Source of the DNA: Synechococcales cyanobacterium S06
GTDB taxonomy: Bacteria > Cyanobacteriota > Cyanobacteriia > Cyanobacteriales > JAABRE01
DNA: 48,847 nt
Reading direction: 5' to 3'
Assembly (NCBI GenBank): GCA_011391125.1
Contig: JAABRE010000037.1
Coordinates: 1-48,847 of the forward strand
Positions 6,790 through 21,861 of this stretch are shown here, piece by piece. Under the pieces are notes generated by a model that saw only the letters and a program-made list of their open reading frames with translations, made no database searches and had not been told where the DNA came from. The translations under genes were made by a program, and so were the position numbers. Every line of letters begins with the position of its first letter. The stretch's first letter is position 1.

Positions 6790-7758
6790 TCAAGATTTTT
6801 CCATAATCATAAATAAAGCATCACTGGTCAAAGCTTGTTCTCTAGCAGCACGCCATGTTGCTTCAAGCCACCAACGATCTTCGCCCTCAAGTAAATCTGG
6901 ATTAGCACCCTGGGGTTTGTTAAAATGAATCCAATGAAAATAATTGAATATACCGTAACGTTGATAGCCGTATAGGTTAATTTTGGCCTGGGAATCGGCT
7001 TGGCGAGCTACCGTTTCAAGGGAATGGCGATTAAAATAGGAAATGTGTTCTATCATATAATTCCGGTCTCGGAAAGCGGGGGATAAGGACATTAATTCAT
7101 CATCCCCATTCGGCACTTCAACACAAACAAGACCAGTATTGGGTTTTACTAATTGACAAGCTAAACCGAGAAAGGGGATGGGATTCGGAACGTGTTCTAA
7201 AACGTGCCACATTGTCACTATGTCATAAGTCCCCTGATATTTCGCCACAAAATCTTCATTTAACAATTCCGTCACAAAATCTGGTACAGGATGAGATTCA
7301 CCAGCTTCGGAAAGATATTTTTGGCCCATTTCTGCTCTTTTGGAACTGGGTTCTAGGACTTTGACATCAAAATTGGGGTATTGGCGTTTGACTTCTGAAC
7401 CGAAAAACCCATAACCTCCGCCAATATCCAAAATACGCAAAGGTTCAGCACTGGAAATTTGCTCAAGAGCAATCCCTCTCTGTTGAAAACGCTTTAATCG
7501 GCGTTTTGCGTCAATCCAGCTATGTTCTACTATTTTCTCGATTGGTGTACCATAATCATGAACCACGAAGTTTACTTGTTCATCTTCATTGTAATAATCA
7601 ATGCTATACATGGGTGGATTTAGCTGAAAATGTCCACAATTGCGACAACGCACTACCTGCAATACCCCATGGCGATCGCCTTTAACGGAATGCTGCACAA
7701 TGGAGGGTAAGGAATTTTCGCCACATAAAATACATGAAAAATCTGTAGATGTCTGCAT
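6790..7758 (-). CDS. Class I SAM-dependent methyltransferase with N-terminal zinc ribbon
   Basis: A 322-residue methyltransferase likely to act on a sugar or nucleotide-sugar of the surface-glycan locus. The N-terminus has two CxxC pairs (CILCGE at about 9-14 and CRNCGH at about 38-43), a zinc-ribbon arrangement common in sugar methyltransferases. SAM motif I is LRILDIGGGYGFFG at about 108-121, followed by IVTMWHVLEHVPNP, the Methyltransf_23 signature. AGGAG lies about 6 bases before the ATG. It is the last gene of the minus-strand glycan locus. Its first 15 codons and upstream DNA are duplicated at 9829-9872, so it was formerly adjacent to the cytidylyltransferase gene and is now separated from it by toxin-antitoxin modules. 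The substrate is unknown. Confidence 0.85.
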   Translation of the reverse strand: MQTSTDFSCILCGENSLPSIVQHSVKGDRHGVLQVVRCRNCGHFQLNPPMYSIDYYNEDEQVNFVVHDYGTPIEKIVEHSWIDAKRRLKRFQQRGIALEQISSAEPLRILDIGGGYGFFGSEVKRQYPNFDVKVLEPSSKRAEMGQKYLSEAGESHPVPDFVTELLNEDFVAKYQGTYDIVTMWHVLEHVPNPIPFLGLACQLVKPNTGLVCVEVPNGDDELMSLSPAFRDRNYMIEHISYFNRHSLETVARQADSQAKINLYGYQRYGIFNYFHWIHFNKPQGANPDLLEGEDRWWLEATWRAAREQALTSDALFMIMEKS

Positions 7759-9828: not shown

Positions 9829-10004
9829 TTTTCGCCACATAAAATACATGAAAAATCTGTAGATGTCTGCATCTTAGTCTCCTAGAATCAATGATTTTGG
9901 TTGTCGATTTCTTTAGATATAGCATTGGCGATCACAAAATCAATGGGCTCGTTAATATCAATCGCTTCTATCTTAGTGACAGGAATCAGAAAAGGGCGAT
10001 CGCC
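9829..10004. repeat. Direct repeat, copy 2 (methyltransferase 5' fragment plus cytidylyltransferase 3' end)
   Basis: Second copy of the 176-bp segment at 7715-7890, offset 2114 bp. Here the cytidylyltransferase part is continuous with the whole gene. The methyltransferase part (ATG at 9872) is a dead fragment of 14 native codons that stops after three more. Confidence 0.92.
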
Positions 10005-10547
10005 CACCCGACGATTCTGATTGAGTAAAATATCTCGGGTATAAATATATAAACCAGTTGTTTCAGAGTACATTGGTTTCATATCTTGAGTACGCGGAAT
10101 AGAACTAGGATCGTAATTAAAAGGTTTGTGATTAAACCAGAAGAAATCTTGGTGTGGAAGCACTGTTAAGGCCGAATCATAATTTTCACCGACTACCTTC
10201 TTTATTCCTAATTCAACGCTATCCGAAGATAAAAATGGCACAGTGGCATTGGCTAGTACATAAATATCGGCTGGAACATCATGGGCGAATGCCAACATAA
10301 CCTCATTAATTAGAGTGTCTGAGCGATCAAGTTCTGTACTACGTGAGAGATATTTAACCTTTTCGGGAAGATACCGGCAGATCGAATCATCGCTACAATA
10401 AGCATAGATATCATCTAATCCTTTAGTATTAATTAATGTCTCAAAGATATAGGATAGTAACGGACGTCCATTGTCAAATAACTTGGTATTTTTATGGGGA
10501 AGACGTTCGTTATTCAACTTTAGGGGAACATAAGCAACAACTTTCAT
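9888..10547 (-). CDS. neuA: Acylneuraminate (CMP-sialate) cytidylyltransferase-like protein
   Basis: A 219-residue enzyme of the CMP-sialic acid synthetase family, expected to activate a nonulosonic acid with CTP. The N-terminal nucleotide-binding motif is VPLKLNNERLPHKNTKLF, a variant of the usual PARGGSKRIPGKN. The middle has ANATVPFLSSDSVELGI (the P-T-P segment of the family), and the end has EAIDINEPIDFVIANAI, the typical IDI(D/N)xPxD closing motif. It starts 22 bp after the NeuB-fusion gene, so synthesis and activation are co-transcribed. The sugar could be sialic, legionaminic, pseudaminic or another keto-acid; the sequence does not settle this. The gene symbol is by family only. Confidence 0.82.
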   Translation of the reverse strand: MKVVAYVPLKLNNERLPHKNTKLFDNGRPLLSYIFETLINTKGLDDIYAYCSDDSICRYLPEKVKYLSRSTELDRSDTLINEVMLAFAHDVPADIYVLANATVPFLSSDSVELGIKKVVGENYDSALTVLPHQDFFWFNHKPFNYDPSSIPRTQDMKPMYSETTGLYIYTRDILLNQNRRVGDRPFLIPVTKIEAIDINEPIDFVIANAISKEIDNQNH

Positions 10548-10569: not shown

Positions 10570-12099
10570 TCATTTAAAATATTTATGGTGTTCACTTTTG
10601 TTAATTTGTTTAATTTCGCTACCTACAATCAACTCAGTTTCGCGTATATTATCAATATAGTCAACAAAAGCTGAAGTTGTCAAATCCACCGCTACCGCAT
10701 CAAAATGCGCCCATTCAGTGTTACCCAATTTAACGTGTTTTTCCAACATTTTAGCACCCGCTGCCACCGCTAAAGCCGAGGCTTTCCAACCATGATCGTG
10801 ACTAGAATAACCCGGCACAATTTGCGGATATTTTTGGGATAAATCATGGTAGTGACGTACTACACCAATATGACAATCGTGAAGTGGGGTAGGATAGGCC
10901 GAATTACATTGAAGTAAGTATAACTTTTCACAGGCCTTAAAGTTTTCTAAAATAAAATCCTCATAAAACTTGCTAGTCATCCCCGTCGAAAGCACAATAT
11001 TACCCGTATAATTCTTGGCCACCATGGTCAGATAATCCCGGTGTTCAGAAATAGTAGAAGGCAACTTAATTAACTCTGGATTAAGATCGGCCATAAAATA
11101 AAAAGAAGGTTCATCTAACACCGAAGCAAACCAACCAATTCCTATTTCTTGACAAAGGCGATCGACAAATTCAAAGTCTTCCTTAGATAACTCCAATTGA
11201 TAGCGATAATCAGCAAAAGTTTTGCCAAAAGGTGATTTATAGGGTGATTCCAACTGCTCCTGACTGTAAAAAGTCCCCACATCACGCTTTTGAAGCTTGA
11301 TATAATCTGCACCGGCCGCATGAGAAGCTCGAATCATTCTTTCTAAGCGAACTCGATCGCCAAAATGATTAGTGGTTAACTCGGCAATAATAGCAACTTG
11401 GCCAACATGAACATTATCATAATAAGTTTTGGCTAAAGAGGTATTTAATTCCGTGGTAGTAAGAGCGCTAAAGCTTTTTCTACCAACGTGTTTAACTTCC
11501 AAATCGCTGTCACGGAGAAAATAAAGGACATTGAGCAAATAAAACTCCTGCATCGAAACCCTTAGGGAGCCTTCTTCGTGATCTTCCGTGGCATAATCTT
11601 GACCTAATTGCTGACTGTGACCAAGGGAAAGGTCAAAATCAAAACCTACCATATAAACAGTCTGCTTACGACCACGAATACGGGCTATTTCCTTGGCAAT
11701 TTTCAACCCTGACATAAAGAGCATATCTTCAATGACGAAATCGTCTCCCATGAAGCGTTGCATCATCAATTCCGAAGAAGATTGACTTAATTTTATATAG
11801 GGAGCGATAAATTGGGGTTTGTCGCCGAATAAATATGTTCTCGGAGTCAAATAAAGCCTTGCTCGACAACCCTTGTCGGTTAAAGCCTTGGCGACCCAAT
11901 CACTGTGAAAAATAGTGATGTCAACAGGTGCAATGCGTTCAGCATCATTAATCCCAATCAGTAATGAACCTTTAAAAACCTCTGGTTTTATCTCGTCAAT
12001 ACTTGGTCCCTTACCGAGAATAAAAATCGTATCGCTAGTATAAGTAGCAGCTATATTTTCAATTTCGGTCGCTAAACTATTTAAAACTAAAACGCTCAT
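10570..12099 (-). CDS. Fusion: GT42/DUF115-like domain + NeuB-type sialic acid synthase
   Basis: A 509-residue two-domain protein. Residues about 20-215 resemble sialyltransferase GT42 / DUF115-type nucleotide-sugar domains: FILGKGPSIDEI (compare GNGPSL in GT42), LIGINDAE, a central SGLKIAKEIARIRGRKQTVYMVGFDFD. Residues about 233-495 form a NeuB-type barrel that condenses phosphoenolpyruvate with a 2-acetamido sugar: IIAELTTNHFGD, GADYIKLQKRDV, NIVLSTGMTS, LLQCNSAYPTPLHD, GYSSHDHGWKASALAVAAGAKMLEKHVKL. The C-terminal SAF (antifreeze-like) domain normal in NeuB is absent; only about 15 residues follow. ATGA overlap with the upstream phosphatase gene indicates translational coupling. A single polypeptide would join synthesis to a transferase-like domain. 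The NeuB assignment is firm; the N-terminal activity is inferred. Confidence 0.85.
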   Translation of the reverse strand: MSVLVLNSLATEIENIAATYTSDTIFILGKGPSIDEIKPEVFKGSLLIGINDAERIAPVDITIFHSDWVAKALTDKGCRARLYLTPRTYLFGDKPQFIAPYIKLSQSSSELMMQRFMGDDFVIEDMLFMSGLKIAKEIARIRGRKQTVYMVGFDFDLSLGHSQQLGQDYATEDHEEGSLRVSMQEFYLLNVLYFLRDSDLEVKHVGRKSFSALTTTELNTSLAKTYYDNVHVGQVAIIAELTTNHFGDRVRLERMIRASHAAGADYIKLQKRDVGTFYSQEQLESPYKSPFGKTFADYRYQLELSKEDFEFVDRLCQEIGIGWFASVLDEPSFYFMADLNPELIKLPSTISEHRDYLTMVAKNYTGNIVLSTGMTSKFYEDFILENFKACEKLYLLQCNSAYPTPLHDCHIGVVRHYHDLSQKYPQIVPGYSSHDHGWKASALAVAAGAKMLEKHVKLGNTEWAHFDAVAVDLTTSAFVDYIDNIRETELIVGSEIKQINKSEHHKYFK

Positions 12100-12812
12100 T
12101 TAGTCTCCTCAATATTGTTTAAATTGTAAACATGACGAATATCAACCCGATATTTTTGAGTTGGATCAAGCAATTGTCCTTGATATGGTTCATCATTTAA
12201 CAAAATTTGACAACCATGTTCAGAAGCCAACATAATACCGGGTAATAAATCCCAGACATAGGCCCCTTTAGGATTAATAAACCGAGCAAAAGAACCACGA
12301 ATCACATTAAACAAATTATAAACCGCACATCCGGTAACACGATATTCGATCGCCTCCTTGATACCTTTGGCAATCAAATCATTATAGGAAGAAGAAAACC
12401 CCGTAATGCGAGAAAATCGAGGTTTAATCTGATCACCTGTTTTAATACATTCTTGGAGTTCAGGCATTAATAACATACTAGCGAGGTGTTCTTGACCATG
12501 CCACAAACTCAGAGAAACTCCCCACTCCTTTAAACCAGAGCAGAAATTTTCTGTACCGTCAATGGGATCAAGAATGGCTAAATATCCTGTATTTTCAGAC
12601 CAAGCAAAATCAAAAGACTCCTCACCAATAAACCTCAGATTCGGAATTTGAGTGGTCAAATATTTTTTGATGATATTTTCCATTAACACATCAGCAGTGG
12701 TAACAGGACTACCATCTGGTTTATAGGTAATCTCATAACGTTGAGCCAACATTTGGCTAAGGGAGTCATAAACTAGGTTTTCGCAGTTTTTGATAAGTTC
12801 GATGGGGTTCAT
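12096..12812 (-). CDS. Inositol monophosphatase-family phosphatase
   Basis: A 238-residue Mg-dependent phosphatase of the IMPase/CysQ/FBPase superfamily. Metal-site motifs are visible: FIGEESFDF (Glu of the first metal site), ILDPIDGTENF (DPxDGT signature) and YVWDLLPGIMLASEHGC (second signature). In a nonulosonate operon a phosphatase of this type could remove the phosphate of a sugar-9-phosphate or a 3'-phosphonucleotide, but a housekeeping role is equally possible. The stop overlaps the next start by 4 bp (ATGA). It begins 36 bp after the GT29-like gene. Confidence 0.85.
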   Translation of the reverse strand: MNPIELIKNCENLVYDSLSQMLAQRYEITYKPDGSPVTTADVLMENIIKKYLTTQIPNLRFIGEESFDFAWSENTGYLAILDPIDGTENFCSGLKEWGVSLSLWHGQEHLASMLLMPELQECIKTGDQIKPRFSRITGFSSSYNDLIAKGIKEAIEYRVTGCAVYNLFNVIRGSFARFINPKGAYVWDLLPGIMLASEHGCQILLNDEPYQGQLLDPTQKYRVDIRHVYNLNNIEETK

Positions 12813-12848: not shown

Positions 12849-15398
12849 TCAGTTATTGTTTTGGTTATTTTTGTCTAGTATCTCCTTAATCATATTTAAG
12901 ATAACATCGGGAGCAATGCTATAACTGGTGTGAGAACCACTTTTGTTTTTTGGATTTGGTATATCTACAATGTGTTCAGAAGGTACGGTGCGACGTTGAT
13001 AATGAATTTGAGTATCAGAACCTTTCAAAAAAGAACGACCGATATGTGCGACTCCTGGTTTTCTGGCAAAGCGATCTACATACATGGAGCCAGTGGAATT
13101 ATTAGCAATAAAGACATCAATAATAGTTGCCAAAGCTAATTTTCTAATGGCGTCAGCACCTACTAGATTAAAAGTTCTGGCATCCTTGGGTAATAATTCT
13201 ATAATCTTATTTACTACAGCCTTATCCTTGGTGATTTCTACAATATCTTGAGCAAGAGGATGTAAAGGACTAGTCCAACCATCAAATACTACTCCCAGAT
13301 GAGGATACATTTTCGCCAATTCCGTAATAATTTTTGCACCACCTTCAACTTGTTCTCGCCAAGTTCTTTTTTGACCAGTAATACCAAACCACAGCAAGGG
13401 ATAGCATTCTTGAGCCATTTTGACTTCCAGTAAGATTTCTGGACTCACTAATTGGTCAGCTTTAGTTAAAATGAGATCACTGATTTCCTCATGGAAAATT
13501 ATATTGTTTTGATCACCACCATTACTTCCGATATGAAGATAAAATAGATTCTTATTTTCGCAATTGTTACGAATAAAAGCTGGATTTTTTATATATTCAT
13601 CACAAGAAGCATCGAAAATAGTTTTAATGGAGAAAAAATCTTCTCCTTGATAAAGATAAATAGCCGGAATTTTTGTGATCAAATTTTTTTTAAAGAGAAA
13701 ATAAACACCGAGGCAGACATCATAATAAAAATGATAGGGACGATGTGAAGATGCTAAGATTCCAGCAAATTTATTACGGGAGGATTTGATAATATAATCG
13801 AGAACAAAAGTAAAATGGCCACACAAGTTCACCATAAACTGATAGATTTGTTGATCGCAGATATGATGATTTCTAAAAATAAAGTCTCGACAGGGAAAAT
13901 AGATGGCATCTGCTGAGGTAATCCATTGGAAAATAAAAAAAGTTTCTCCAGATGGACAGATAAATCGTAACGCTGTTATATTAGTCAAAACCTGAAAACT
14001 CTGATTACAGATGGCGGATCCTAGTCCAAACGGATTAACTATACTGCATAAATCATTATTTAAGGCGGATTCTACTAAATCAGCACAAAAATCATTTTTA
14101 CTGATTTGGGCAAAAAAAGATTTCAAAAAATCTTTTTCCTTTTCTTTAAAACAGGGAGAGTTTAATGCTTTTTTTAGATCGTTTTTAACGATGATCGGCT
14201 TTTTATAGAGATGTTTAGCAATCAAGTTTGGCTCTAACTTTTGTAGTTCCTTAGCATCATTGAGAGAGATTTTTTCAATTCTATTGTCAATAAAATTATG
14301 CCATGCTTTAATTGCTCTTATTTGAGTAGATTCTCTGGGGAGCATTTCAATGGTTAGCCAATGGTGGCTAACTTCATTAATAGAGATAAAAAGTTCTATT
14401 TTTTTGCTAAATTCTATCTCAAAGTTAAAACCACATTTAGTAAAGGGGGAGTTGAGAGGATTAATATTAAGTTTCTTTTTTACAACATCCGGTCTTTCAA
14501 TTGATAAAATACCTTCTTTTTCATAATCTGATGTTTTAGCAATAATCTTAATAGTCACATCATCTTGTTTGGGAAGTACCCAACCAGCGACAATAATTGA
14601 TTCTTTACTCGTGTTTTGTTGCGTGATTAATTGCTGATTTTGTTTAGGATAGTCTAACCAGCAAGCAGTGAGCAGATTACTCAGATTTTTATTGTTTATT
14701 TTAGTGACATTGATTTGAAAAGTATCCGTATTTGAATCGGAATTTATTTTTGGTTCATAGGTAATTAAATCCATCCGCTCTAAAATTTGATTGAAAATCT
14801 CTATTTCAGTTGTTAAAGGTAGATGAAAATTATCATAAGTTTTTGTTAGTTGTTCCCATTCTTTATTATCCTTGTAAAAATGCATCTCCCCATCTTGTCT
14901 GGGGAATCTTTCCATACCAAAAACAGATATTTTTTTAATACCTATTTCGGGTGCAATTAAATACAATAAAACAGCTAGCCCCGATCTGACTGGTTTTAAG
15001 CTTTGTTGGCTGTAGTTTGTGCCTAGTATGTTATCTATTATTGTAAAGGCAATTCCGTGAATACTAAATTTTAAAACAATCAGATCATTTTTATTAGCGA
15101 GTTTATCCTGATTGATCGGCTTTGTTATTATAATGGAATCTTCTTTGAGATGATCAAAAAAAGACTCATGCTCTTCTTGCATTTGTAAAAGTACAAATCT
15201 TAGGGTTGTTTTTTGCCCCGTATGGATTTCTAATCCATTAAGTTCAGCAGTATTAAAACGAATGACGACATCATGGCTATCTATATAATCCCCATTCTTA
15301 TATTCTAGTAATATAGGAGAGTTACCGACCACAGCTACAGACTTTCCTGAACAAATTTTTTTAAGATATTCACAAAACTCTAATTCATCTATTAGCAT
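12849..15398 (-). CDS. GT29 sialyltransferase-like fusion with accessory and C-terminal glycosyltransferase-like domains
   Basis: An 849-residue protein. Residues 18-70 (VAVVGNSPILLEYKNG, then IDSHDVVIRFNTA and GQKTTLRF) match the large sialylmotif of GT29 sialyltransferases. Residues about 138-178 (SGLAVLLYLIAPEIGIKKIS, then FGMERF and MHFYKDN) match the small and very-small motifs, with a histidine in the expected place. Residues about 265-360 form a beta-rich module (VAGWVLPKQDD, RPDVVKKKLN, GFNFEIEF) that also occurs in the TPR-glycosyltransferase protein upstream. The C-terminal third (about 600-849; WFGITGQKRTWREQ, FDGWTSPLHP, NNSTGSMYVDRFARKPGVAHIG) looks like a GT-B type glycosyltransferase, though I cannot name the family. 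No signal peptide or membrane anchor. A sialyl-type transferase fits the adjacent NeuB and NeuA genes. The GT29 call is motif-based. Confidence 0.72.
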   Translation of the reverse strand: MLIDELEFCEYLKKICSGKSVAVVGNSPILLEYKNGDYIDSHDVVIRFNTAELNGLEIHTGQKTTLRFVLLQMQEEHESFFDHLKEDSIIITKPINQDKLANKNDLIVLKFSIHGIAFTIIDNILGTNYSQQSLKPVRSGLAVLLYLIAPEIGIKKISVFGMERFPRQDGEMHFYKDNKEWEQLTKTYDNFHLPLTTEIEIFNQILERMDLITYEPKINSDSNTDTFQINVTKINNKNLSNLLTACWLDYPKQNQQLITQQNTSKESIIVAGWVLPKQDDVTIKIIAKTSDYEKEGILSIERPDVVKKKLNINPLNSPFTKCGFNFEIEFSKKIELFISINEVSHHWLTIEMLPRESTQIRAIKAWHNFIDNRIEKISLNDAKELQKLEPNLIAKHLYKKPIIVKNDLKKALNSPCFKEKEKDFLKSFFAQISKNDFCADLVESALNNDLCSIVNPFGLGSAICNQSFQVLTNITALRFICPSGETFFIFQWITSADAIYFPCRDFIFRNHHICDQQIYQFMVNLCGHFTFVLDYIIKSSRNKFAGILASSHRPYHFYYDVCLGVYFLFKKNLITKIPAIYLYQGEDFFSIKTIFDASCDEYIKNPAFIRNNCENKNLFYLHIGSNGGDQNNIIFHEEISDLILTKADQLVSPEILLEVKMAQECYPLLWFGITGQKRTWREQVEGGAKIITELAKMYPHLGVVFDGWTSPLHPLAQDIVEITKDKAVVNKIIELLPKDARTFNLVGADAIRKLALATIIDVFIANNSTGSMYVDRFARKPGVAHIGRSFLKGSDTQIHYQRRTVPSEHIVDIPNPKNKSGSHTSYSIAPDVILNMIKEILDKNNQNNN

Positions 15399-16176: not shown

Positions 16177-19100
16177 TTATGTGCTTTTTTTGTCAGGTTG
16201 CTTGTCCATTTTTTGCTGATGTAATTTTTCAATAGTCCCAAGCATTTTTTCAACACGTTTGGCAAAACTATGATTTTCTCTAATATATTGAGAAAATTTC
16301 CATCTTTTTTCCCGATGGGCCTCTTTTAAGTCCAGGGTTTCCTGCATCAGTTTAGGTAACTCGGAAGCAGAACTATAGGTAAGGATATGATCGCCAAATA
16401 CTTCGTCTAAACCTGATACTTGATCAGATACAATGGTAGCACCACAAGCGGCGGCATCAAAAAGTCGATTAGAAATAAAACCATAACGACTCATGGTGTC
16501 CCAGTGATCATTTAAGATCACATCAGCACGGGTGTAGTAACGTCGCAAAATCTCATTGGGTATATGTTCACCTTTGAGATAATCGGGGGAGATAAAGTAT
16601 TCCCAATTTGTACCATAAACATCAACCTTAATCCCAGACTCGAGGGCATCTTTGACAATTTTACGATAAACCTTGCGAGAATTACCGACAAACACCACCG
16701 AGCCAACTTCTTCTTCGCCTTCGGTGTCGGGGTAAAAAACATCAGGATCGGTGCATTGCAATAATGACTCCACGGGCACATTGATTCTTTTCTTTAAATC
16801 TTCAACGTAAGATAAAGAGGCCAGAAAAATATGGTCATATTGTTCATATTCATGGCTAGAAATCTTATCGGGATGACTAATATTCCACATTAAGTTGATA
16901 TTATAAGGTTTGGGTTTATATTCACTTAAACCACGCAAAACAAGAACCACATCATCACCATAATTTTGATAGGTATCCCATTCGGGTAAAATATCAATGC
17001 GTACCGAATGGCCTTTTCTTTCAAAAGCCCGTTTGATGGCCAAGGCAAAATGATAATCTCCCCATTCTTGGATGCCCTCCCAACGAGGAGCGCCAATTTT
17101 GATACTAAGGCGGAAAGTCGAACTCATTTTCGCTTGTAAAGACTTAAAGGCGGTATATGCCCTATGTTTATAGGTATGATGTTCATTAACAATGGTTTGT
17201 AATTTGCTCACCAGTGCGAGTCGTTTCGGTTCATTGGTTAAATATTCTCGCAAAAGTTGTTCTAAAGATTCTTGGGAATCAAATGTCGGTAGCAAACCAT
17301 CAAAGACATAGTCACTGCCCAATTTACCATTGGTAATCACTAAAGCTCCCGCACTGAGGGCATCAAAAACACGGGAATTGACGGAGCCCCATTCTTTGGT
17401 CACGATGTTAGCATCATCCACCACAATCTTGGTGGAAGCATATACTTTGGACATTTCCCGATAAGGAAGCGGACCACGGTAATATTTGTTAAATTTATCA
17501 AAGGTTTCCCAATTGTAACCATACAAAGCGAAATCAAAGGGTAAATTATCAGGTTCGAGAAAATCGACGATTTCTCGGGGTGAGTTCCAATAACTACCGG
17601 TAAAACAATAATCAGAGACAAATTCCGGTTCAAATTCAGCTTCTTGGAAACGTTGGTTATTAGTGGCAATGGGCATAAACACCACTGGTTTAGCCAATTC
17701 TTTTCCTAAATACTCAACCGCCCTTCGGGAAGAAGCCCAAATTAGATGATAGTCGCCAACCCAAGGCCTGGTAGTCAAGCGCTCAAACCAGTTTCGTATC
17801 CACATAATCTTGACTAAACTGGGTTTACAATTTTGCAATTCATTGAGATTGTAATCATCTCGCATGACGACAATTACATCTAAACTGCTCATGTCGTACC
17901 AGTTTTTATCTTTTTGAGATAAGTAAAAAACTTCCCAACCAAATTCTTCCACTAAATTTTCGCCCAATTCTAAAGCGGTAAAATAATCGCCAGCGGAAGC
18001 CTCTAAACTAGCTTCCGTCACTGCAAAACCGATGCGTAAAGGGGAACAAGTCCAGAATAACCCCTTGTCAAAGAAATCAGATAAATGACGGCGACGAACA
18101 TAATAACCAAAACGCTTTTCCATTTGTTGCTGATTATCTGACTGTCTTAAAGCAAAGGTTTTGGAGGGGTTATTAAATCTGGTTAAACCACGATGATGAA
18201 ACATGGCTAAATTGTTGGAACAAACAATGTTTTTCTTCAGTTCTCGTTGAAATGATAAACACAAGTCCACATCTTCATAGCCATAGAAGTAACCTTCATA
18301 AAAGCCGCCAACGGCCATAAATTCCTCGCGTTTACACATCATCGCGGCTCCAGTGGTACCTGGTACAAACCAAGCTGATGAATTGACTCCTAGTAAATGA
18401 GATGAATATCTAATATCAAAGGGACGAAATATTCTTTTTTGTTCATAAAAATTAAATTGAATACCTAAATGCTGTGTTGGTGGCAATGTGCGTTGATGAC
18501 TATCAATAATGTCGAGGAGTTTTACTCCCACAATACCCACGGTTTGATCTTGAGCTATGTTCACCAATTCGGGAATGATGTCCTGACAGAACATCATATC
18601 GTTATTGACGAAAAACAGCAGTGAAGCGTCGGTTTTTTGAGCCGCCAAATTATTCGACTCGGAAAAGGAATAATTACGATCTCTTGCGATAATTTTAACC
18701 GGTAAAGATTGAGACCAAAATTCACAAATTTTGACACTTTCATCCTGGGAATTGTGGTCAACTACGATAATTTCTACATTTTTATAAGTGTTATAAGTTT
18801 GAAAAGAAGCAAATAACTGATCTAAAACAAAAGCCCCATTTAAATTCAAGATAATTAAAGCAACTTTGGGGGAGTTGCGATTAACTAATTCCGGATCTTG
18901 ATATTTATACAAATTTTGCTCAATTAAATAGAAATGCTGGTTTTGATGATAATTTAGGTGTTTTTGACCAACAGAACCCACCCCAATGTCTATGGGTGAA
19001 TTTCTCAAATCTTTATTGGTTGCTCTTAATTTGACATTTACTGAGATTTTATTTTGGAAAATCAAGCTTTTAGGAATTTCGATCACAAAACCATAGTAAC

Positions 19101-21861
19101 CATTACTACTAAATTTGCTAGCTAAATCACCTCTATATTTGTTAGCTTTACAACTACTAATAAATTCATCATTGATATAAGCATCTAAGATTAAGGTTCG
19201 ATCGGGATTATGTTTATCTCTAGCCCAACCTACAATAAAATCAGAATCTGCTTTTTCAATACAACCATCATAAAAGGGAGAATTTTCATATTTATCTTCT
19301 CTTTTTAAACTGTTATAATATTTGTTTATATTATTTGATTTTTCTTTGAGTAATCTTATTTCGGTTCGTTTTTCGTTAATTATTTTTTGCAAAGATTGCA
19401 ATTGTAAATTTTCGGGATGTCTTTTTAAAGCTTGACAACATAAAAGAGCACTTTCTGATAATTTTTCTTGCTTGATTAAAATATTTAATAAACCGATAAA
19501 GCTAAAAGGATTTTTCTGGTCTTTGATAATGGCTAATTGAAATAAATTTATAGCTTCTTCCTCTTGACCTTCTTTAAAAAGAAGAACACCTAACTTAATA
19601 TAGGCCCAAGCTTCTTCAGGATCTAAACTAATACATTTTTGATAAAGGGCAATTGCTTCTTCTATTTTGCCATCTTTTTCTAAAGCTATGCCTAAATTAA
19701 GATAAGTTTTGACAAAAGGTGGAACAATGGCGATCGCTTTCTCCCAACAATTAATCGCTTCTTGATTTTTATTATTCTCTAATAAAATTTCCCCTAAACT
19801 AACCAGTATTTCGGCGTTTTCTGGATTAATTTCTAATCCTTTGTTATCGGTTTCTCTATAGTTGGAATTTTCTTTAATTTCTTCGCGATAATTATTAAAA
19901 GCTTCTTCTAATTCCTCTTGATATTGGTGTTGTAAAGTTTGGCTTATCTTTTCTTCTATTTTGGGCAGATCAGTTTCTAATTCCTGAGCTTTACCATAGG
20001 CATTGGCAGCTTCTTCCCATTTTTCTAATTTAACTAAGGCCTCGCCTAAATTATAATAAGACCAATGAAAATTCGGGTTAATTTCGATCGCTTTTTGGAA
20101 GGAATTAGCGGCTTCTTGATAATATTTTAATTTTAAACAAGCTTCGCCCAAGTTATGATGTGACCAAGAAAATTTGGGGTTAATTGTAATAGCTTGACGT
20201 AGGCATTCAACGGCTTTTTCCCAGTTTTCTTCTTGATTAAGGTAAAGATTCCCTAAATTATGATAGCCTTGCCAATTATTAGGATCAATTTTGAGTGCTT
20301 GAAAACAACAATTAAGGGCTTCTTGAAAATCCTGTTCTTGGCTATAAATTTCACTTAGATAGATATAGGATTGAGCATCATTGGGATTTTGCTTAATTCC
20401 TTGTTGAAAACATTGTTTTGCCTCGGTTAATTTTTGCTGTTTAATCAGAATTAATCCGATTTGATGATAAGCTAAGGAAAAGTCGATTTTTAGTTGAATG
20501 GCCTGCCGATAACAATTAAAGGATTCGGTGACTTGCCCGATTTTTAAGAAACTATTACCCAGATGATAATAATCGATTGGTTTAACGGTTTCTGGTTCTA
20601 ACTTATATGCCTGATACCAACAATTAGTCGCTAATTCTTGTTGGTCAGTTTGCTCATAAACCCTGGCTAAGTTCCGATATACAGCTGCTAAGTTAGGATT
20701 AATTTCTAAGGCTTTTTTATAGGAAGATATGGCCTCGTTCCATTGTTGTTTTTGAGCGTACAGACTGCCCAAATTAGCGCAGGATTCGGCGGAATTTGTT
20801 TCTTTTAAGCTGGTTAAATTTGCCTCATCACTTACAGGTTGTTTATTTAATTGATCGCTCTTAGTTTGCCCTTGAGAGGATAGGGTTTGTTCTAAATTTT
20901 CCCCTTTTTTATTAACAGTTTCACTCGCTTTTTTTGATTGTAAGATGATCAGGTTACGATAACATTCGCTGGCCTGTTCTAATTCCCCTTGTTGCTGTAA
21001 TATTTTGGCTAATTCTTGATAAGCTTCCAGAAAATCGGGTTGATATTCGATTGCTTTACGTAAGCATAAAATGGCCGGATTTATTTGATTTTGTCTTAAT
21101 AAATAATTAGCAATTGTGTAATATTCTTCGGAACTTGTTTTTTCTGGTTCAATCAGGGAAGCTTGATAAGTTGCTTGAATTGCCGGTTCAATTTGACCAG
21201 TTTCTTTCAATATTTTGGCGATATTACGATAGACTGCGGCTAATTTTGGGTTAAAATTAACGGCTTTTTCATAATTATTTAAGGCTGCTTGCCAATCTTT
21301 TTGTTTGGCATAAATACTACCCACATTTGCATAAACTTCGGCAAAATCTGGCTTGATTTCTAAGGCTTTTTGATATAAATTTAAGGCCTGTTCATTTTGC
21401 CCTATTTGTTGCAAAGTATTACCAAATATTTTATAACCTTGGGCAAAATTAGGGTTAATTTCTAATATTTTTTGACATAAAATTATGGTTTGTTGCCAAT
21501 TTTTTTGCTGATAAAAAGATTCAGCTTGGTTAAATAATTCTTGTTCAGTACCAATTTCGGTTCTCTTTTGAGTTGTTTCTGTTACTAAAATATTTTGATT
21601 TATAATTTCTGTCTGCTTCGGTAAAGTATTAATTGTAATAGCTTGCTGATAATAATAAATTGCTTCCGTTAAATTACCTTGTTTTTTAAAAGCTTCAGCC
21701 AATTTTTGGGTTATTTGATAATTATTCGGCTCTACATTAAGTATTTGACGGTAATAGGCGATCGCCTCATCAAGTTGTCCTGTTTCTTCTAAAAATTTTC
21801 CTTGTTCAATGAAGTTTAAGATTTCTTTTTCCATGGCGATTTCTGGATTAGAGTTAGACAT
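16177..21861 (-). CDS. Giant TPR protein with three glycosyltransferase domains (GT2 and two CgeB-like)
   Basis: A 1894-residue cytoplasmic polyprotein. About 1-830: more than 15 TPR units (typical AIxxYxxALxIxPxxAxxYxNLG spacing). About 865-970: the beta-rich VGWARD module shared with the GT29-like protein. About 997-1240: a GT2 (GT-A fold) domain with VALIILNLNGAFVLDQLFAS, IIVVDHNSQD and FFVNNDMMF as the metal-binding DxD equivalent, then VPGTTGAAMMCKREEF and GYEDVDLCL. About 1275-1560 and about 1583-1880: two CgeB/GT-B type transferases, each with a SRVFDALSAGALVITNG or NRLFDAAACGATIVSDQ motif. Three catalytic modules on one chain suggest processive building of a glycan. First gene of the minus-strand glycan locus. 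Modules are clear; sugar and acceptor are not known. Confidence 0.88.
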   Translation of the reverse strand: MSNSNPEIAMEKEILNFIEQGKFLEETGQLDEAIAYYRQILNVEPNNYQITQKLAEAFKKQGNLTEAIYYYQQAITINTLPKQTEIINQNILVTETTQKRTEIGTEQELFNQAESFYQQKNWQQTIILCQKILEINPNFAQGYKIFGNTLQQIGQNEQALNLYQKALEIKPDFAEVYANVGSIYAKQKDWQAALNNYEKAVNFNPKLAAVYRNIAKILKETGQIEPAIQATYQASLIEPEKTSSEEYYTIANYLLRQNQINPAILCLRKAIEYQPDFLEAYQELAKILQQQGELEQASECYRNLIILQSKKASETVNKKGENLEQTLSSQGQTKSDQLNKQPVSDEANLTSLKETNSAESCANLGSLYAQKQQWNEAISSYKKALEINPNLAAVYRNLARVYEQTDQQELATNCWYQAYKLEPETVKPIDYYHLGNSFLKIGQVTESFNCYRQAIQLKIDFSLAYHQIGLILIKQQKLTEAKQCFQQGIKQNPNDAQSYIYLSEIYSQEQDFQEALNCCFQALKIDPNNWQGYHNLGNLYLNQEENWEKAVECLRQAITINPKFSWSHHNLGEACLKLKYYQEAANSFQKAIEINPNFHWSYYNLGEALVKLEKWEEAANAYGKAQELETDLPKIEEKISQTLQHQYQEELEEAFNNYREEIKENSNYRETDNKGLEINPENAEILVSLGEILLENNKNQEAINCWEKAIAIVPPFVKTYLNLGIALEKDGKIEEAIALYQKCISLDPEEAWAYIKLGVLLFKEGQEEEAINLFQLAIIKDQKNPFSFIGLLNILIKQEKLSESALLCCQALKRHPENLQLQSLQKIINEKRTEIRLLKEKSNNINKYYNSLKREDKYENSPFYDGCIEKADSDFIVGWARDKHNPDRTLILDAYINDEFISSCKANKYRGDLASKFSSNGYYGFVIEIPKSLIFQNKISVNVKLRATNKDLRNSPIDIGVGSVGQKHLNYHQNQHFYLIEQNLYKYQDPELVNRNSPKVALIILNLNGAFVLDQLFASFQTYNTYKNVEIIVVDHNSQDESVKICEFWSQSLPVKIIARDRNYSFSESNNLAAQKTDASLLFFVNNDMMFCQDIIPELVNIAQDQTVGIVGVKLLDIIDSHQRTLPPTQHLGIQFNFYEQKRIFRPFDIRYSSHLLGVNSSAWFVPGTTGAAMMCKREEFMAVGGFYEGYFYGYEDVDLCLSFQRELKKNIVCSNNLAMFHHRGLTRFNNPSKTFALRQSDNQQQMEKRFGYYVRRRHLSDFFDKGLFWTCSPLRIGFAVTEASLEASAGDYFTALELGENLVEEFGWEVFYLSQKDKNWYDMSSLDVIVVMRDDYNLNELQNCKPSLVKIMWIRNWFERLTTRPWVGDYHLIWASSRRAVEYLGKELAKPVVFMPIATNNQRFQEAEFEPEFVSDYCFTGSYWNSPREIVDFLEPDNLPFDFALYGYNWETFDKFNKYYRGPLPYREMSKVYASTKIVVDDANIVTKEWGSVNSRVFDALSAGALVITNGKLGSDYVFDGLLPTFDSQESLEQLLREYLTNEPKRLALVSKLQTIVNEHHTYKHRAYTAFKSLQAKMSSTFRLSIKIGAPRWEGIQEWGDYHFALAIKRAFERKGHSVRIDILPEWDTYQNYGDDVVLVLRGLSEYKPKPYNINLMWNISHPDKISSHEYEQYDHIFLASLSYVEDLKKRINVPVESLLQCTDPDVFYPDTEGEEEVGSVVFVGNSRKVYRKIVKDALESGIKVDVYGTNWEYFISPDYLKGEHIPNEILRRYYTRADVILNDHWDTMSRYGFISNRLFDAAACGATIVSDQVSGLDEVFGDHILTYSSASELPKLMQETLDLKEAHREKRWKFSQYIRENHSFAKRVEKMLGTIEKLHQQKMDKQPDKKST

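Follow-up and report, generated by a model that had tools for sequence, protein, structure and literature searches.

The gene described here is related to the NeuB, PseI and SpsE synthases (PF03102; PDB 1xuu, 8h2c and 1vli), with which it shares the TIM barrel, the PEP and metal residues and the order of motifs. In characterised NeuBs the SAF domain is regarded as an integral part of the enzyme, since it provides a substrate-binding arginine to the active site of the partner. In NeuB, Arg314 reportedly holds ManNAc in place by its N-acetyl group (PMC6795526). In Bacteroides thetaiotaomicron and Prymnesium, CMP-Kdn is produced from Man-6-P via Kdn-9-P and Kdn by a synthase, a phosphatase and a cytidylyltransferase (PMC6200933). 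Kdn is also a capsule sugar in Serratia marcescens KL1/KL2, where its presence requires an unusual NeuB that carries an additional domain (PMC9000132); that domain is a sugar phosphate isomerase/epimerase (COG1082), whereas the one described here has a predicted MptE/GT42 fold. Sialyltransferases of family GT29 have been reported previously in bacteria (PMC5811610). A SAF-less NeuB fused to a sialyltransferase/MptE-fold domain is a variant of the known NeuB synthase family; no published account of this architecture was found in the open-access literature searched, and one may already exist elsewhere.

The fusion gene and its synthase domain

The fusion gene is located at 10570..12099 on the minus strand of the window (the whole 48,847 nt stretch of DNA analysed) and encodes 509 aa. 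The host genome encodes both PsaA and PsaB and so belongs to a cyanobacterium, and no NeuB-type protein other than the fusion was detected there. A preliminary description of this DNA had placed the gene at the same position, and the motifs it quoted (GKGPSIDEI, SGLKIAKE, VGFDFD, NHFGD, LSTGMTS and EKHVKL) are all present. Residues 1-226 (11422..12099, minus strand) form the N-terminal domain, and residues 235-509 (10573..11397, minus strand) the NeuB TIM barrel. PF03102 matched residues 255-497 with E=1.5e-42 (146 bits against a cut-off of 22) and was above its cut-off in all 36 members of the fusion family. The Pfam search gave no SAF match in the window protein or in any of 36 relatives, and a profile search gave none across the entire host genome; the same Pfam library detected SAF in two control NeuBs of the ordinary type, and the proposal that this is a NeuB without SAF is thus confirmed. 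The protein ends where SAF would begin, about 50 residues beyond the second metal histidine (H455), in a SEHHKY-type tail (residues 502-507; 10579..10596, minus strand) of which EHHKY is invariant in the 36 aligned members. The tail and the N-terminal domain both set it apart from the NeuB/PseI/SpsE enzymes, as does a distinctive GNTEWAHFDAVAVDL segment, of which GNTEWAHFDAVA is invariant in the 36 members.

Alignment of the barrel to Neisseria NeuB showed that the PEP and metal residues E240, K268, Q270, K345, S348, S371, Y402, S432, H434, E453 and H455 are invariant in the 36 members, and correspond to the PEP/Mn residues E25, K53, Q55, K129, S132, S154, Y186, S213, H215, E234 and H236 of the Neisseria enzyme. 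Glu134 of that enzyme is replaced by Ile, and the region of Arg314 is missing. Scores against the NCBIfam equivalogs were far below the cut-offs, both for N-acetylneuraminate synthase (TIGR03569; 128 against 400) and for pseudaminate synthase (TIGR03586; 103 against 340). Based on these residues, the domain would be expected to perform PEP condensation and is likely to use a different sugar. The suggestion that catalysis is altered is therefore not supported for the chemistry, as the PEP and metal residues are all invariant, but is plausible for the sugar substrate, given the lack of the SAF arginine that binds the N-acetyl group and the change of Glu134 to Ile.

Distribution and gene neighbourhood

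When one genome was scanned for each species, the fusion was detected over essentially its whole length, at 51-66% identity, in 43 species genomes, which is a lower bound as exact query peptides were used. The hosts are alpha-, beta- and gammaproteobacteria, a Deinococcales MAG and Actinobacteria. The two domains are preserved over their full extent in all 43, so the fusion is neither a sequencing artefact nor a chance event, and its full-length presence in these genomes and in enteric capsule loci rules out an artefact of two adjacent genes. One of the 43 copies, that of Nesterenkonia pannonica (L040), is frameshifted or broken. Of 291 genomes from the class of the host, only the host's own had the full fusion and the others matched the NeuB part only, and the cyanobacterium has therefore probably acquired the gene horizontally from other bacteria. 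A phage or viral origin was considered and rejected, as neither the phage collection nor the viral contigs contained a full-length relative.

In a tree of the barrel sequences only, with long branches for several of its rows and an arbitrary root, the fusions form one clade (100/100) on a long branch, with the window protein placed among proteobacterial and Deinococcales members. The clade branches next to one of the two principal groups that lack SAF, and absence of SAF is thus not confined to it. In alpha- and gammaproteobacteria and in cyanobacteria, most of the best-scoring unfused homologues have lengths of 283-318 aa and no SAF; NeuB alone was found by Pfam in the three that were tested, and the solved Leptospira NeuB (PDB 6ncs; 290 aa) is also SAF-less and without extra length. 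A QKR motif after the catalytic Lys is common to the fusion and most of the unfused genes detected, which often adjoin a cytidylyltransferase but do not have the N-terminal domain. Many cyanobacterial NeuBs (L048-L067) lie inside open frames of ~750-770 aa with extra sequence on both sides.

The neighbours of the fusion in the window are on the same strand (minus). Upstream, and overlapping it by 4 nt (12096-12099), is an inositol-monophosphatase-family phosphatase (IMPase; 12096..12812; PF00459, E=4e-20) with GEES, DPIDGT and WD motifs, and 22 nt downstream is a CMP-ulosonate cytidylyltransferase-like gene (9888..10547; PF02348, E=1.6e-9). An 849-aa protein (12849..15398) has an N-terminal GT29 sialyltransferase domain (PF00777, E=1.3e-13; PDB matches to ST3Gal and ST8SiaIII). 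Its long C-terminal region has no Pfam match, and related proteins are found near the fusion in two other loci (L018 and L020). A methyltransferase (6790..7758) is an optional member of the cassette, with genes 52-60% identical to it near the fusion in four other loci (L011, L014, L016 and L019). Upstream of the cassette region, 16177-21861 encodes a 1,894-aa protein that, judged by eye from the sequence, is TPR-like and has glycosyltransferase-like parts.

In the relatives, the IMPase gene is directly upstream of the fusion in 32 of 43, or in 34 when the whole of the fetched flank is considered, and a cytidylyltransferase is nearby in ~31; nine Nesterenkonia/Garicola loci have no IMPase nearby. 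In all 32 relatives with an adjacent IMPase, its stop codon lies inside the fusion frame near the GKG codons (4 nt past GKG in 22), giving overlaps of ~55-105 nt in a different frame (e.g. L002:8001-8089). The conservation of the first ~28 residues of the fusion may therefore be partly due to double coding. The overlap is just 1-4 nt in the window and in the enteric loci inspected; a DNA duplication behind the short overlap in the window was rejected, as its score was that expected by chance. The neighbour survey found neither amino-sugar genes nor an aldose-phosphate isomerase conserved beside the fusion. Asticcacaulis and Aquabacterium have polysialyltransferase-like genes close to it (PF07388 was tested in L015, and L002, L038 and L039 have genes of the same cluster), and other hosts have TPR/MptE-like proteins (tested in L021, with the same cluster in L037 and L043).

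Fourteen of 5,426 complete E. coli genomes (~0.3%) have a DNA match to the fusion, and two enterobacterial plasmids (one from Enterobacter) and one E. coli chromosome carry it at ~45% identity. The enteric loci inspected (L165-L168) are ABC-transporter-type capsule loci with rhamnose genes, and in both E. coli and Enterobacter they retain the trio of fusion, IMPase and cytidylyltransferase. A CatB-type O-acetyltransferase is encoded as well in two of the E. coli loci inspected. No assignment was found for the capsule sugar of the E. coli loci that carry the cassette.

Proposed pathway and product

On balance, it is slightly more likely than not that the fusion is a two-domain enzyme of a compact cassette whose product, formed by a phosphorylated route, is a CMP-activated 3-deoxy-ulosonic acid destined for a surface glycan. 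The SAF-less NeuB domain would condense a phosphorylated aldose, supplied by central metabolism, with PEP to give a 3-deoxy-ulosonate phosphate, for which the leading candidate substrate is mannose-6-phosphate, yielding Kdn-9-phosphate. The IMPase-family neighbour would then remove the phosphate, and the cytidylyltransferase would convert the free sugar to a CMP-sugar, perhaps CMP-Kdn. This would be consumed by sialyltransferase-type enzymes; in the window the 849-aa GT29 protein is the likely user, and in other hosts polysialyltransferase-like or MptE-like proteins or capsule glycosyltransferases may take its place.

A parallel module with different parts is present in two other gammaproteobacterial genomes (L153 and L154), where a SAF-less NeuB is followed by a cytidylyltransferase and then an MptE-like gene. 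The L153 cytidylyltransferase is fused to a HAD phosphatase according to Pfam, and the L154 gene has a similar length and start. This suggests that a phosphatase step is part of the pathway, and that the fusion joined two genes that were once adjacent. Two other SAF-less NeuB loci (L158 and L163) have no obvious phosphatase among the ORFs listed, and the link between absence of SAF and a phosphorylated substrate is correlative. No characterised Kdn-9-phosphate synthase is known to lack SAF.

Kdn is the leading candidate for the product by analogy, since a gene set of synthase, phosphatase and cytidylyltransferase, with no conserved amino-sugar genes, matches the CMP-Kdn route, and since the Serratia capsule Kdn also depends on an atypical NeuB fusion. 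The cassette differs from the Bacteroides and Prymnesium pathway in having an IMPase-family phosphatase and a SAF-less, fused synthase; the Bacteroides phosphatase is presumably of the HAD type. There is a considerable chance, although it falls short of probable, that the product is instead Kdo, a longer sugar or another ulosonic acid. In cyanobacteria, the SAF-less NeuBs of L046/L164 and L047 adjoin a SIS-domain isomerase (tested by Pfam in L164) and a HAD-type phosphatase, suggesting that other phosphorylated aldoses may serve as substrates in this branch. Against this, the fusion has no conserved aldose-phosphate isomerase beside it, so its substrate should be a common metabolite.

Predicted fold and possible role of the N-terminal domain

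The AF2 models, which used alignments of 35-36 related sequences, gave a pLDDT of 89.4 for the N-terminal domain modelled alone and a single confident two-domain arrangement for the full fusion (pTM 0.86). The top Foldseek match of the domain model in the PDB was Cst-II (E=1e-3, prob 1.00). On structural re-alignment the model matched archaeal HPPK/MptE (8sd5) with Z 10.5, Cst-I and thiamine pyrophosphokinase each with 9.7, Cst-II with 9.3, ST8SiaIII with 9.1, SteA with 8.9 and a Pasteurella sialyltransferase with 7.7, and the bulk of the remaining folds with ≤4.9, scores within 1 Z of each other being tied. Comparison with MptE-like proteins by hhalign gave Prob 66 with P 5.5e-5, as against Prob 0.1 when the sequences were shuffled or reversed as controls, and among 159 frames the best matches of the domain profile outside the family were the MptE-like proteins of L153 and L154 (E 3e-4 and 1e-3). 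By its predicted fold the domain is a member of the MptE/HPPK-GT42-GT29 superfamily, and these matches suggest an origin in an MptE-like gene such as those that lie beside SAF-less NeuBs in other bacteria.

Membership of a known sequence family was not supported. Nothing credible in Pfam matched residues 1-226 of the window protein and 35 relatives, and neither PF06002 (CST-I) nor PF01973 (MptE-like/DUF115) matched any of the 36 members. There was no significant match to PDB sequences, no profile-level similarity to the neighbouring GT29 domain, and no stand-alone copy in 385 alphaproteobacterial and 149 actinobacterial-family genomes; the PF06002 search of gammaproteobacteria matched nowhere at all and is uninformative on GT42. 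The preliminary assignment to GT42/DUF115 is thus correct for the predicted fold, with profile similarity to MptE-like proteins in addition, but GT42 membership is not supported.

Across the 36 members the conserved motifs of the domain are GKGxS, NDxE, R115, E124, GFDF, Q184 and HVG, with G29, K30, G31, S33, N51, D52, E54, R115, E124, G152, D154, F155, Q184, H204 and G206 invariant, and the invariant polar residues are retained in the ~45%-identical enteric proteins. The GxGxS, Asn and GxD motifs are shared with the MptE-like/DUF115 and Maf-type flagellin transferases (PF01973), but the loop after GFDF has no conserved histidine in the fusion family. The MptE-like proteins examined do have histidines in this loop, although not in one shared column. 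GT42/Cst-II enzymes share the fold at Z 8-10 in the model, as do those of GT29, and GT42 enzymes carry their catalytic histidine in the corresponding loop. Conserved counterparts of the Cst-II histidine, arginine and tyrosines, located by residue number, were not seen in the fusion alignment. Transferase activity is therefore doubtful as judged from the residues present.

Within the favoured pathway, the most likely ligand of the domain would be the CMP-sugar or a similar nucleotide, which it would either use as an atypical transferase or bind in order to sense the product. As the presumed transferases vary by host and the domain stays fixed to the synthase, it is more likely to act in synthesis or its control than in final transfer. 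This also counts, along with the lack of conserved counterparts for the Cst-II residues in the alignment, against its being a true CMP-ulosonate glycosyltransferase, so that one chain would make the sugar and transfer the first residue to an acceptor. The fold common to GT42 and GT29, and the separate MptE-like genes of L153 and L154, speak for that reading, which is nonetheless rather improbable. More doubtful still is an uncharacterised class in which a SAF-independent aldose-phosphate synthase and a sialyltransferase/MptE-superfamily member with a different catalytic apparatus, in one chain, make and possibly transfer an unrecognised surface ulosonic acid in E. coli capsules, cyanobacteria and Actinobacteria.

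The preliminary description had raised the idea that the domain replaces SAF; on this reading it would be a non-catalytic part that caps its own or the partner's barrel and gives substrate-binding residues. SAF is missing and the domain always present in the family, the confident two-domain arrangement suggests rigid packing, and the GT42-type histidine is unconserved. As the absence of SAF is broader than the fusion, and the closest unfused NeuBs have no such domain attached, a substitute need not be invoked; furthermore, K30, S33, N51, D52, E54, R115, E124, D154, Q184 and H204 are invariant even at 45% identity, a polar set exceeding what a pure lid would need, and this role is unlikely. Very unlikely is a diphosphokinase- or kinase-like activity on the sugar substrate, from the MptE/TPK side of the superfamily: HPPK/MptE and thiamine pyrophosphokinase are among the best structural matches, the GKGxS lysine is invariant and the cassette includes a phosphatase, but those matches are tied with the sialyltransferases and a transferase is the simpler reading of the MptE-like neighbours of NeuB.

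Under the preferred reading, that of a synthase in a phosphorylated route, the cassette fusion probably helps to make an acidic surface sugar. A widespread SAF-less branch, one lineage of which is tied to a domain of sialyltransferase fold and, in most cases, to a phosphatase, provides a handle on the purpose of SAF and a way to ask which acidic sugar is made. Because a few E. coli have the cassette among their capsule genes, its product would form part of the capsule there.
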